Shown here: piece by piece, positions 12,506 to 57,748 of the stretch | Layout: the number at the start of each line of letters is the position of its first letter | Numbering within the stretch: the stretch's first letter is position 1 | Assembly: GCF_003967515.1 (NCBI RefSeq) | Contig: NZ_BIFQ01000001.1 | Location: forward strand, 248,001-312,000 | DNA: 64,000 bases | Source of the DNA: Dictyobacter aurantiacus | GTDB lineage: Bacteria; Chloroflexota; Ktedonobacteria; Ktedonobacterales; Ktedonobacteraceae | Direction: 5' to 3' | Program-made: the position numbers and the translations under genes | The notes under the pieces: generated by a model | The model's database searches: none | Told to the model about the DNA's origin: nothing | Seen by the model: the letters and a program-made list of their open reading frames with translations, nothing else

Positions 12506-12833
12506 GTATATTCCTTAGGTTACATTAACACAGTTTGTATAACTTACGGAACACGAAATTGAGGAATGAGCCTCGTTGCTCGTGTCTCTGATCCAGCTAT
12601 TGTATTCTACCACGTACTATGGTATCATAGCTTTACCATACTCCAAAATATTCACGGTACTAACACCTACAGGACTTAGGACGAACAAACAAGCTCATTC
12701 GTTTCTTTATTGCGAAACACCCGAAATCCTACTGTGCAGAGACCGCACGAATAGCGGAGTACAAGCGACAACCTTACGCGTGCAATGCACGAAGAAGCAT
12801 ATATACACAACAATACAATAGATAATCAACAGC
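12506..12833. other. Divergent promoter region between sucA and the T-box leader
   Basis: About 330 AT-richer bases must contain promoters for sucA (minus) and the alaX-ileS transcript (plus). A small inverted repeat CTATG/CATAG (12617-12630) lies about 115 bases before the sucA start. I find no box pair good enough to name a promoter, and no gene. Confidence 0.4.
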
Positions 12834-13212
12834 GATGACGGAGCCAGTAGGCCGCAGCCCCTGCTATAGAGAGTCCGGGGATGGTGAAACCGGATACAGG
12901 TCGCGTGCCGAATATCACTCCAGAGCTACCAGCCGAAACCAGCACGTGTGGTCATGTGATCAACACAGGAAGTAGGCGCAGTCGGGTCCTTCCCGTTATC
13001 ATGAAGGCATGTAGTCCGCCGTTCCTTTATGCGTTCCAGCACTTCTATACTTTTACAAGATGAGTTGAACCGCCATCACGGAGAAACTCTCGCTGGGGAA
13101 CTGTCCGGAATATGTGTATTGAGTGAGCCAGGCCATGGAAGTGCCATGCCAGGCTAATCAGGGTGGTACCACGGGAGTTCCTCTCGTCCCTTTGTCGGGC
13201 GAGGGGTTTTTT
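12834..13212 (+). promoter_or_regulatory. T-box leader, Ile specifier (ATC), with terminator
   Basis: A tRNA-sensing leader. Stem I begins at GATGACGGAG; the loop-E partner AGTA is at 12846-12849 and GAA at 12910-12912. These are followed by T and then the candidate specifier ATC (12914-12916) and a purine, which fits isoleucine. The antiterminator T-box word GGGTGGTACCACGG is at 13161-13174, where TGGT predicts an A discriminator on the tRNA, as in tRNA-Ile. A terminator stem (about 13179-13205) ends in TTTTTT at 13207-13212. Uncharged tRNA-Ile would favour readthrough into alaX and ileS. The specifier is assigned by eye. Confidence 0.9.
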
Positions 13213-13234: not shown

Positions 13235-13960
13235 ATGAAAACCAAACTCCTTTACCATATAAACAGTTTCACGTACGAGTGTACAGCCACGGTTGTGGCT
13301 GTGGAGGGTGATGATATCGCGCTGGATGCTACCGTCTTCTATCCCGGCGGCGGTGGGCAGATGGCCGATCGAGGTATGATTACCTGGCCGGGGCAGGATT
13401 ATCCCGCCAGCGTGATCGCCATGCATAAACGCGACGATGTAGTCTGGCATACCCTGGACTATCCACCTCCTCCTATCGGCACGGAAGTTGTTGGTACCAT
13501 CGATTGGGATTTCCGCTATCAAATGATGCGTACCCATACGGCGCTCCATATCCTGTGCGGCGTCATCTGGAAAGAGTTCAATGTCCAGGTGACGGGAGGA
13601 CAGATGTACCCGGATCGCGCGCGCATGGATTTCGCCATGGAAAACCTGGATAAAGAGCGCATCGCCTACATTGAGGAGAAAGTAAACGAGGCAATACAGG
13701 CAGACTACCCCATCCGGGTCTATACTCTGCCACGCGAGAAGGCATTCTCTATTCCCGATCTCGTACGCACCAGGGTCAATCTCTTGCCACCCGAGATGGA
13801 GGAGATACGTATCGTTGAAATAGTCGGCCTCGATCTGCAGGCCGATGGCGGAACGCACGTGAACCATACCCGCGAGGTGGGCGGCATTCATATTACAAAA
13901 ACAGAGAATAAGGGCAGAATCAACAAACGTCTGGAGATTATGCTCGATTCTCGACAATAA
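13235..13960 (+). CDS. AlaX-like alanyl-tRNA editing protein
   Basis: A 241-residue stand-alone relative of the AlaRS editing domain, which hydrolyses mischarged Ser- or Gly-tRNA-Ala. The N-terminal part has VFYPGGGGQMADRG, the HxxxH zinc motif appears in RTHTALHILCG, and the second half of the site reads ADGGTHVNHTREVGGI. At the position where AlaRS and most AlaX proteins have the zinc-binding Cys of CGGTH, this protein has Asp. Asp could bind zinc or mark a subfamily with different substrates. The ATG at 13235 has AAGGAA 8 bases upstream; the longer frame to 13163 overlaps the T-box and is rejected. It is the first gene after an Ile T-box and is followed by ileS. Confidence 0.88.
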   Translation: MKTKLLYHINSFTYECTATVVAVEGDDIALDATVFYPGGGGQMADRGMITWPGQDYPASVIAMHKRDDVVWHTLDYPPPPIGTEVVGTIDWDFRYQMMRTHTALHILCGVIWKEFNVQVTGGQMYPDRARMDFAMENLDKERIAYIEEKVNEAIQADYPIRVYTLPREKAFSIPDLVRTRVNLLPPEMEEIRIVEIVGLDLQADGGTHVNHTREVGGIHITKTENKGRINKRLEIMLDSRQ

Positions 13961-14056
13961 ATATTCTTTTTGGATTTATCAAGGTAGTTATTCTACAGCT
14001 GCTATATTCATCTGCGAGGCTATCTCGATATAGCTGTGAACGCAGAGGAGGACACT

Positions 14057-17000
14057 GTGTCAGTAAAATCTAGTGTATTCAAACCGGTTGTGGCGGCCGA
14101 TCGCGTCGATTATCCACAACTGGAGCATGCCATCCAGCATTGGTGGGACGAGCAGAATGTTCGTCAGCAATATCTGAAACGCAATGAGAATAGCGACAAA
14201 AAGTATTCTTTCCTGGATGGTCCCATCACCGCCAATAATCCCATGGGCGTCCATCACGCCTGGGGGCGCACCTATAAAGATCTGTATCAGCGCTTTAAGA
14301 CGATGCAAGGCTACAAGCAGCGCTATCAGAATGGTTTCGACTGCCAGGGCCTGTGGGTCGAGGTAAACGTTGAGCAGGACCTGGGCCTGCAAACCAAACG
14401 CGATATCGAGAAATATGGGATCGCGGCCTTTGTTGAAAAATGTAAGGAGCGCGTTTTCACATTTTCGAAGCGTCAGACCGAGCAGTCGGTTCGCCTCGGT
14501 TATTGGATGGATTGGGGCAACGATTACTTTACGCTCTCAGATGAGAATAACTATACCATCTGGCACTTTTTGAAGCAGTGTCAGGAGCGCGACCTGATCT
14601 ATAAGGGGCGCGATGTGATGCCCTGGTGTCCGCGCTGCGCGACCGGCATCTCAAATATGGAGATGGAGGCCGAGGGCTATAAAGATCTGACCCACCTGAG
14701 CCTGTATGTCCGCTTCCCCCTGGTGGATCGCCCGGGCGAGTATCTGCTGGCCTGGACCACGACTCCCTGGACGCTGGCGGCCAATGTGGCGGCGGCCGTT
14801 AATCCCGACCTGACCTACGTGAAGGTTGAGCAGGATGGGGAGTACTACTACCTGGTTGAGCAGCTGCTTTCGGTATTGAAAGCGCTCAAGGGACATGATA
14901 AGGGCGACTATAAGGTGGTAGAGACCCTGAAGGGCTCTGATATGGTCGGCTGGAAGTATCGCGGTCCCTTCGATGAGCTGCCCGCCGAGAAGGATGTGGC
15001 GCATACCGTGGTCCCCTGGAAAGAGGCTAATGCGACCGAGGGAACCGGCATCGTGCATATCGCTCCTGGCTGCGGTCGCGAGGACTTTGGTCTCTCCAAA
15101 GAATTTGGCCTGGCGGTGGTGGCCCCGGTCGATGAGTTTGGCGTCTACAAAGAAGGCTTTGACTGGCTGACGGGCAAGCATACCGCTGAGGTGGCAGACC
15201 TGGTGGCGGAGAACCTGACCCAGAAGGGCCTGCTCTATCGCTCTCAAAAGTATAAGCACCGCTACCCTACCTGCTGGCGCTGTAAGACCGAGCTGATCTT
15301 CCGCCTGGTTGATGAGTGGTTCATCTCGATGGAGAACCTGCGCTACGAGATCATGGATGTGGTACGCCAGATCCAGTGGATCCCGTCCTTTGGCTTCGAT
15401 CGTGAGATGGATTGGTTGCGCAATATGGACGATTGGATGATCTCCAAGAAACGCTACTGGGGACTGGCCCTGCCGATCTTCGATTGTCCAAAATGCGGCA
15501 ATTTTGAGGTCATCGGTAGCCAGGAGGAACTGAAGGAGCGTGCCGTCGCTGGCTGGGAGAAGTTTGAAGGCCATACTCCACACCGTCCGTATATCGACGA
15601 GGTCAAGATCGCCTGTAAACATTGCGGCAGCGAGGTCTCGCGCATCAAAGATGTGGGCAATCCCTGGCTGGACGCGGGTATCGTTCCCTATTCGACGCTC
15701 AACTATCTCACCAATCATGAGAAGTGGCAGCAGTGGTTCCCGGCCAACTTTGTTACCGAGTCTTTCCCGGGCCAGTTCAGGAACTGGTTCTATTCGATGC
15801 TGGTCATGAGTACGGTGCTGCAGAAGAAGGCACCATTCCAGACCCTGTTTGGCTATGCCACGCTGATGTCGGAAGACGGCACGCCGATGCATAAGTCCAA
15901 GGGCAACATGGTCGTCTTCGACGATGCGGCCGAGAGCGTCGGTTCGGATACCATGCGCTGGCTCTATAGCAACCATGTGCCCGAGCAGAACCTGAACTTC
16001 CCGGCGATCCCCAGTTTGGCGGCTGTGGAGCAGGCTCGCGCGAAGGGCGTTCCGGTGCGCCTGAGCGAGAAGTGGATGCTGACGCGCCGTACACTGGATA
16101 AAATCTGGAACGTCTACTGGTTCTTTGTTACCTATGCCAATATCGATCAGTTCGATCCGGCGCAGCATCAACTGCCAGTGGCGCGACGCAGTGAGCTGGA
16201 TCGCTGGATCATCTCGGAGCTGCATCAGACCATCCGCGAGGTGACCAGCGGCCTGGAGCAGTACGACACGACGAAGCCAGCCGAGGCTATCCAGGGCTTC
16301 TTGGAGGATCTCTCGAACTGGTATCTGCGCCGGAGCCGCGAGCGCATCTGGAAGTCGCAACTGGATGATGATAAGGTCGGCGCCTACCTGACTCTCTATG
16401 AGAGCCTGACGACGATGATCACCCTGCTGGCTCCCTTTATGCCCTTCCTGACTGAGGAGCTCTATCAGAATCTGGTGCGCAGCGTCGATGAGCAGGCACC
16501 GTTGAGCGTCCACCTGCAGGACTGGCCTGAGGTCCGTCCCGAGCTGATCGATGAGAAGCTGACCAACGAGACCCACCTGGTGATGCGTATCGTTGGGCTG
16601 GGTCGCGCCGCCCGTGAGAAGGCACAGATCCGCGTGCGCCAACCCTTGAACGCGCTCTACGTCCACGTGCCCACCGGCGCGGAGGAGGAGGCCCTGCAGC
16701 GCCTGAGCGAACAGGTGCTGGAGGAATTGAATATCAAGAGTCTGGAGCTGATCAGCGCGGATAGCGATATGCTGGCCTACACGGTGCGGCCGCAGGTGAA
16801 GATCCTGGGACCCAAGTATGGACCGCTGGTTCAGAAGATCCTGGCTCACCTCAAAGGTCTATCGGCCCACGAGGCGCAGGAGGCTGCAACCCAGCTCAAT
16901 ACGACCGGCACCCTGACCTTTACGGTTGCCGATAAAGAAGTTAGCCTTACCGCTGATGAGGTTTCCATCCTGGCCACTGCACGACCGGGATTTGTGACCG

Positions 17001-17377
17001 CTGAAGAACGTGGCTATATCGCTGCCCTGGAGACTACCATCACGCCCGAGTTGCGTGAGGAAGGGATGGTGCGCGACCTGATCCACTTCATACAGGATAT
17101 GCGAAAAAAAGCCGGCTTCAATATCGAGGACCATATCGGGGTGGCGCTCTACACCGAGGTTGAACTGGCGCATATTCTGCAGCCATATCAGCAGGAGATC
17201 ATGGTCGAGACACTGGCCTCGAACCTCTTGCTCTCGATCAGCCAGCGCGACTACCCTTCCTTTGAGGAGGTCTATCGCGAGCGCATCTCGCCCGAGTCCA
17301 GTAAAAAGCTTGAGAACTATACTATCGAGGTTGTTCTTGGCAATAATGTCCGGGACAATACCCATCTTTCGTCATAG
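14057..17377 (+). CDS. ileS: Isoleucyl-tRNA synthetase, IleRS2-like with GxHH signature
   Basis: A 1106-residue class I synthetase. The first signature, at ~residues 56-66, reads PMGVHHAWGRT: HIGH is replaced by G-V-H-H. The second signature is MHKSKGN instead of KMSKS. The CP1 editing domain is present (LAWTTTPWTLAANVAA, GTGIVHIAPGCGREDF). Cysteine pairs CPRC, CWRC, CPKC and CKHC suggest zinc sites. The C-terminal anticodon-binding region and IleRS2-type tail extend to ~1100. A GTG start at 14057 has AGAGGAGG 6 bases upstream; an upstream GTG at 14036 is less likely. It is co-transcribed with alaX under the T-box and ends at a strong terminator. Confidence 0.93.
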   Translation: MSVKSSVFKPVVAADRVDYPQLEHAIQHWWDEQNVRQQYLKRNENSDKKYSFLDGPITANNPMGVHHAWGRTYKDLYQRFKTMQGYKQRYQNGFDCQGLWVEVNVEQDLGLQTKRDIEKYGIAAFVEKCKERVFTFSKRQTEQSVRLGYWMDWGNDYFTLSDENNYTIWHFLKQCQERDLIYKGRDVMPWCPRCATGISNMEMEAEGYKDLTHLSLYVRFPLVDRPGEYLLAWTTTPWTLAANVAAAVNPDLTYVKVEQDGEYYYLVEQLLSVLKALKGHDKGDYKVVETLKGSDMVGWKYRGPFDELPAEKDVAHTVVPWKEANATEGTGIVHIAPGCGREDFGLSKEFGLAVVAPVDEFGVYKEGFDWLTGKHTAEVADLVAENLTQKGLLYRSQKYKHRYPTCWRCKTELIFRLVDEWFISMENLRYEIMDVVRQIQWIPSFGFDREMDWLRNMDDWMISKKRYWGLALPIFDCPKCGNFEVIGSQEELKERAVAGWEKFEGHTPHRPYIDEVKIACKHCGSEVSRIKDVGNPWLDAGIVPYSTLNYLTNHEKWQQWFPANFVTESFPGQFRNWFYSMLVMSTVLQKKAPFQTLFGYATLMSEDGTPMHKSKGNMVVFDDAAESVGSDTMRWLYSNHVPEQNLNFPAIPSLAAVEQARAKGVPVRLSEKWMLTRRTLDKIWNVYWFFVTYANIDQFDPAQHQLPVARRSELDRWIISELHQTIREVTSGLEQYDTTKPAEAIQGFLEDLSNWYLRRSRERIWKSQLDDDKVGAYLTLYESLTTMITLLAPFMPFLTEELYQNLVRSVDEQAPLSVHLQDWPEVRPELIDEKLTNETHLVMRIVGLGRAAREKAQIRVRQPLNALYVHVPTGAEEEALQRLSEQVLEELNIKSLELISADSDMLAYTVRPQVKILGPKYGPLVQKILAHLKGLSAHEAQEAATQLNTTGTLTFTVADKEVSLTADEVSILATARPGFVTAEERGYIAALETTITPELREEGMVRDLIHFIQDMRKKAGFNIEDHIGVALYTEVELAHILQPYQQEIMVETLASNLLLSISQRDYPSFEEVYRERISPESSKKLENYTIEVVLGNNVRDNTHLSS

Positions 17378-36108: not shown

Positions 36109-36305
36109 AAGAATTGATATCCCTCGGTTCTTAGCCAATACCGACATCTCTTTTCTGAAAAAGGCAAAAAAGATAGATGTCAATTTAACTAACCCAGGGG
36201 GACATAAGAGGGAGATGTGATTAAACCAGGCGCCGGAGTGAATATACGAAAACACTCCATCCGCCACGGCGATGCCGTCAGACGCATGACACTGGTTCAC
36301 ATTAT

Positions 36306-36460
36306 AACCTTCTCCCATCCGGACTATACCGTCGGCTTCGGCTTCTCACCGAATCTGTTCGCCATTGATCAAGAAGCAATCAATGGCAAACTCGCGGGCT
36401 CGACACAGCGTTATACGCCCTGTCATACCGCCGGTAGGGAATTTCACCCTGCCCCGAAGG
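36306..36460 (-). promoter_or_regulatory. FMN riboswitch (RFN element)
   Basis: Read on the minus strand, it has the family words in order: GGGGCAGGGTGAAATTCCC, TACCGGCGGTA, a long variable arm ending in CCCGCGAG, AGATTCGGTGAGA, GCCGACGGTATAGTCC and GGATGGGAGAAGG. A following stem GGAGTG...CACTCC near 36236-36262 may be the expression platform. It controls ribX-ribY: FMN binding would reduce uptake. Confidence 0.95.
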
Positions 36461-36521
36461 TTTTATTTGTGGTTATTATGCCATATACGAGTCGAAATAT
36501 GCAAGTGCTTAAGTTCGCAAG

Positions 36522-54511: not shown

Positions 54512-54639
<128 letters not shown>

Positions 54640-57620: not shown

Positions 57621-57748
<128 letters not shown>

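Follow-up and report, generated by a model that had tools for sequence, protein, structure and literature searches.

The ileS locus

We analysed a window of 64,000 nucleotides from Dictyobacter aurantiacus, in which a gene for an isoleucyl-tRNA synthetase (IleRS) lies behind a T-box leader and a gene for an alanyl-tRNA editing protein:

12826..13194, + strand: T-box leader (RF00230, 94.8 bits), specifier AUC (Ile), T-box sequence GGGTGGTACCAC
13235..13960, + strand: alaX, AlaX-M-like alanyl-tRNA editing protein, 241 aa, between the T-box and ileS
14057..17377, + strand: ileS, class I isoleucyl-tRNA synthetase, 1106 aa (TIGR00392, Pfam, AlphaFold2 fold match)

The ileS reading frame ends at 17377 on the + strand and opens either at GTG 14057 (1106 aa) or at an alternative upstream GTG at 14036 (1113 aa). 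GTG 14057 is the likely start, because AGAGGAGG at 14044-14051 lies just 5' of it, and the coordinates 14057-17377 given by the original prediction are therefore sound. The same prediction had called the product an IleRS, which is confirmed by a score of 719.6 bits against the curated ileS family TIGR00392 (cut-off 621.4 bits); the product also matches the Pfam families tRNA-synt_1, Anticodon_1 and DUF5915. An AlphaFold2 model built from 27 homologues (mean pLDDT 85.5, pTM 0.75) was used for fold comparison only and has no bearing on ligand binding. In a fold search with this model the P. megaterium IleRS2 was the best match (E 9e-82, 33% identity), followed by the yeast and T. thermophilus IleRS; these matches support the modelled IleRS fold. 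The enzyme is predicted to charge tRNA-Ile with isoleucine.

The T-box specifier loop, read from the alignment, is GAA-U-AUC, where AUC is an isoleucine codon. A T-box above the gathering score was found at the same place in 10 of 16 relatives scanned, with an AUC specifier in all 10. The order T-box (Ile, AUC)-alaX-ileS recurs in relatives, with an alaX homologue located 5' of ileS at 20 Ktedonobacteria-type loci besides the window and at 4 other Chloroflexota loci. This Ile-specific T-box control fits, and thus supports, a housekeeping role for ileS. The window AlaX keeps HTALH and carries DGGTH where relatives read CGGTH in the metal-ligand motif, and the final His of the motif is also lost in the AlaX of the relatives L013, L016 and L029; judging from these substitutions, AlaX may be degenerating or of changed chemistry. 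Elsewhere, the window contains an FMN riboswitch (36303-36465, - strand, 115 bits) and a pair of 5S rRNA genes separated by about 3 kb (54517-54633 and 57626-57742, - strand).

Copy number was assessed by a six-frame family search of the genome (8.88 Mb in 2 contigs, rated 97.3% complete). The window ileS is the one match above the TIGR00392 cut-off; the loci that follow encode one bacterial and one archaeal-like ValRS and two LeuRSs. The window IleRS is therefore the only one detected, which answers the proposal to search for a second ileS and agrees with the proviso, attached to the predicted mupirocin insensitivity, that the cell have no other IleRS. The second, archaeal-like ValRS and the second LeuRS stand beside the usual ones in this genome (G000:C1:5109434-5111743 and G000:C2:1048516-1050744).

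The HIGH motif is swapped to GVHH

Class I synthetases are diagnosed by two signatures, HxGH (the HIGH motif) and KMSKS, and the window enzyme departs from both. The segments discussed below are:

14219..14245, + strand: GPITANNPM segment, a clade signature replacing GPPTANG of other IleRS2 (alignment)
14246..14257, + strand: altered HIGH motif GVHH, residues 64-67 counted from GTG 14057 (alignment to PDB sequences)
15845..15883 (approximate), + strand: strand and loop before KMSKS (FGYATLMSEDGT), with Thr at the adenine-stacking position (alignment)
15884..15898, + strand: altered KMSKS motif PMHKS, residues 610-614 (alignment with KMSKS)

The window GVHH is in register, residue for residue, with that of 8c8w, the engineered mutant of PmIleRS2, and it is aligned on the HVGH of wild-type PmIleRS2 and of T. 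thermophilus 1ile. The first and third residues of HxGH are thus exchanged, and the GVHH reported at this position is real. The original prediction had named as evidence against the swap an ordinary HxGH at another place in the N-terminal domain; this was looked for and not found.

All 80 relatives found in genome contigs encode the window's IleRS family, and those with readable motifs have G/AxHH as the HIGH motif and xMHKS or a close variant as the second motif, indicating that the GVHH/PMHKS combination is not due to chance. H66, H67, M611, H612 and K613 are invariant in the 27-sequence alignment. The closest relatives belong to Dictyobacter and other Ktedonobacteria (Chloroflexota), with 71-92% identity within Ktedonobacteria. 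No relative was found in viral contigs, and phage and plasmid records gave distant IleRSs only, with at most about 37% identity among the matches listed.

Previous work has shown that HxGH is replaced by G/AxHH in 86 of 163 IleRS2, which fall into two clades, one of them an early branch with Chloroflexi and Planctomycetota termed the 'minor IleRS2 clade' (Brkic et al. 2023, PMC10485003). In that study DrIleRS2 (ALHH) has a mupirocin Ki of 6.6 mM, and GVHH introduced into TtIleRS2 and PmIleRS2 raises the Ki about 200-430-fold with retention of activity, while IleRS1 does not tolerate the swap. The GVHH mutant of PmIleRS2 was crystallised and is active and hyper-resistant; the third His stands in for the absent first one in the transition state, and its bulk at the Gly position excludes mupirocin (PMC10485003). 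The original prediction gave a correct account of this literature (activity of GxHH enzymes, mupirocin hyper-resistance), and PMC10485003 ties the swap to a Ki in the mM range. Because it is published there, the HIGH swap alone is already known, and the window enzyme adds a member.

The window clade is IleRS2-like

Trees were computed from the catalytic core of 121 representatives, with the motif columns left out. The window IleRS falls in a separate clade of 29 of these representatives, which has 100% SH-aLRT support and whose stem measures about 0.96 changes per column. A constrained tree that unites all GxHH enzymes in a single clade was rejected (p-AU 0.016), and a single origin with it. 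GxHH arose more than once, in agreement with the at least two origins described in PMC10485003.

We compared the clade with the hallmarks of the IleRS groups. HYPFE, the distinguishing motif of the IleRS2 group (PMC4861432), is found in 0 of 114 window-clade rows as opposed to 22 of the 24 rows of the other GxHH clade. The window enzyme reads STLNYLTN at this position. Among the enzymes assayed in PMC10485003, which also include those of S. griseus and D. radiodurans, the comparison covers the IleRS2 of P. megaterium and of T. thermophilus, and both carry HYPFE. The eukaryote-like IleRS2 are also marked by the lack of the IleRS1 signatures Tyr59, NKIL and SSL (PMC4861432), and these are absent from the window IleRS, which has Thr, GRTY and, read by eye, STL at the respective positions. 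Its C-terminal domain is of the IleRS2 type (DUF5915, residues 893-1068; the model is closest to PmIleRS2), and a Pfam search matched no zinc-finger family that would point to the IleRS1 zinc finger. The clade has GPITANN in place of GPPTANG. The adenine-stacking residue, which is Phe586 in PmIleRS1 and His582 in PmIleRS2 (PMC10485003), is Thr in the window and mostly Thr or Leu in the clade. The editing-site motifs WTTTPWTL and EDF are kept.

The clade matches the published 'minor IleRS2' clade. Since it lacks HYPFE and has a changed adenine-stacking residue, we use the label 'IleRS2-like': by its sequence the window enzyme appears to be related to IleRS2 rather than a full member. The phylogeny that the original prediction had proposed as a check points to an IleRS2-like, GxHH-bearing enzyme, but places it in a separate deep clade without the IleRS2 hallmark HYPFE (0/114).

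GVHH/MHKS-type IleRSs also occur in some Thorarchaeota and Bathyarchaeota-related genomes (L066, L073, L081, L086 and L226-L230). In genome G301 no other IleRS above the cut-off was found beside the GVHH/MHKS-type enzyme. In one Chloroflexota genome (L054, G305:C96:596-6580) two IleRS genes lie in tandem, both with GVHH; one encodes KMSKS and HYPFE, the other EMHKS without HYPFE.

The KMSKS motif and the Lys1/His3 pattern

In PMHKS, compared with KMSKS, Lys1 is replaced by Pro and Ser3 by His, while Lys4 is kept, so that the window IleRS departs from the canonical motif (Lys1 and Ser3). The altered motif had been predicted as 'MHKSK': the oddity is real, but the register was one residue off and PMHKS is correct. 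This change is the less documented part of the enzyme, as opposed to the published HIGH swap.

We surveyed the 294 rows in which the motifs could be read (5 are ValRS), from a sample without Actinobacteria and Deinococcota. His occupies position 3 of KMSKS in 152 of the 294 rows; every one of these lacks Lys1 (152/152) and has an altered HIGH motif (152/152), namely GxHH in 114, GxHS in 2 and the archaeal HxGT in 36. None of the 90 canonical HxGH rows (4 of them ValRS) has His3. The other GxHH clade keeps KMSKS in 24/24 rows, and L123 and L124, close relatives from the same order as the window, keep GVHH together with LMSKS or QMSKS, thus retaining Ser3. His3 is therefore not required by GxHH, and the idea that it is needed was rejected. 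Archaeal-type IleRSs with HxGT (Thermoproteota, Asgard) show xMHKS as well and branch elsewhere in the tree. In an independent-pair tree test of the link between Lys1 and His3, 6 pairs were supported, with a mean of 3.7 changing in the same direction and 0 opposed; the sign test (p 0.125-0.25), based on few independent changes, falls short of significance. L260 and L261, two Chloroflexota loci within the clade, read GVHS and EFHKS/EFHKT, having lost the last His of HIGH too.

A full-text search for 'MHKS' together with tRNA synthetase returned no paper; it covers text only, with alignment and logo figures and source data outside it. The doubly altered GxHH + xMHKS clade is thus a modest new variant, for which we found no discussion in the literature text.

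In other class I enzymes the phosphates of ATP are contacted by both KMSKS lysines, and contact with the 3' end of the tRNA is possible for Lys1 (PMC5059758). We tentatively suggest, as a possibility that we rate well short of even, that IleRSs with an altered HIGH motif (GxHH, GxHS or archaeal HxGT) can have a rebuilt KMSKS loop, in which the first cationic residue has shifted from position 1 to become a His at position 3. If true, this relocation would add to the HIGH rearrangement a further natural one, linked with it, in a universal class I signature, and the resulting active site, altered in both motifs, would have an ATP and inhibitor chemistry of its own.

Mupirocin resistance and alternative explanations

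Taking the observed motif, single detected copy, clade and operon of the window IleRS together, we consider it highly probable that this is the housekeeping IleRS of a Ktedonobacteria-like member of the Chloroflexota, from the deep GxHH clade that corresponds to the minor IleRS2, and that it should charge tRNA-Ile normally with a mupirocin Ki near mM. The third His of GVHH would replace the missing first His in its transition-state role, and its bulk at the usual Gly position would shut out mupirocin; normal charging and a Ki near mM are what the published GxHH mechanism leads one to expect. The mupirocin contacts Asn70 and Phe586 of PmIleRS1 correspond to Gly and Thr in the window IleRS. Very high mupirocin resistance is a reasonable extrapolation, since we are aware of no assay on a member of this clade. 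The active-site shift by which IleRS2 tolerates the third His is assumed for the clade, because HYPFE is missing in 114/114 rows. The KMSKS loop may have changed in parallel, with the Lys of position 1 giving way to a His at position 3 as the basic residue. Both signatures would then have a key side chain two residues further on, and in the window enzyme the basic residue of each motif is indeed found two positions later.

Ordinary divergence is a competitor of some weight, to which we give somewhat less than an even chance: GxHH and xMHKS would be old states frozen in the lineage, the motif changes mutually unrelated and mupirocin insensitivity an unselected by-product. The fixation of the motifs across the clade, in Chloroflexota and some archaea, its one long stem and the lack of a one-to-one tie between the KMSKS variant and GxHH agree with this, whereas the repeated origin of GxHH (p-AU 0.016, and likewise PMC10485003) argues against it, as does the fact that His3 never occurs with Lys1 or with HxGH in our sample. 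That the window gene is a duplicate specialised for resistance, while housekeeping falls to another, sensitive IleRS, is very unlikely. Some genomes do hold two IleRSs, such as the tandem KMSKS-type and MHKS-type GxHH genes of L054/G305, yet the D. aurantiacus genome, at 97.3% completeness, has a single match above the TIGR00392 cut-off followed by two ValRS and two LeuRS loci, and Ile T-box control fits a housekeeping gene. We give even less credence to an inactive or repurposed synthetase paralogue. Both class I signatures do deviate, but no further IleRS was detected in the genome, and the protein is strongly conserved (71-92% identity within Ktedonobacteria) and carries a GxHH motif that is experimentally active in other IleRS2.

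Mutant cycles in LeuRS have provided a measure of the coupling between HIGH and KMSKS (PMC10450160), and a natural clade altered in both signatures offers test material for the dispensability of these motifs and their mutual compensation. The clade is widespread among Chloroflexota, with members in some archaea, and bears on the reach of intrinsic mupirocin insensitivity beyond clinical bacteria.

Comparison with known systems

The staphylococcal plasmid enzymes MupA and MupB are of IleRS2 type and linked to mupirocin resistance, a link predicted for the IleRS2-like window enzyme as well. MupA differs in having HAGH and KMSKS and is 34% identical to the window IleRS, which scores 650 and 640 bits and is thus far below the curated exception cut-off of 1900 bits for MupA/MupB. 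The archaeal HxGT IleRSs (Thermoproteota, Asgard) share xMHKS, the loss of Lys1 and His3, but have Thr for the fourth His of HIGH, keep the adenine-side Phe and occupy a separate part of the tree. The PmIleRS2 GVHH mutant 8c8w is the best full-length PDB sequence match, carries the same GVHH in register and belongs to the top fold-search group; it is 33% identical to the window IleRS and, unlike it, retains KMSKS and HYPFE. The published G/AxHH IleRS2 (PMC10485003) share with the window enzyme GVHH for HxGH, an IleRS2-like C-terminus and a deep-branching Chloroflexota clade, whereas the KMSKS change, the missing HYPFE and the altered adenine-stacking residue, undiscussed in the main text of that study, set the window clade apart.
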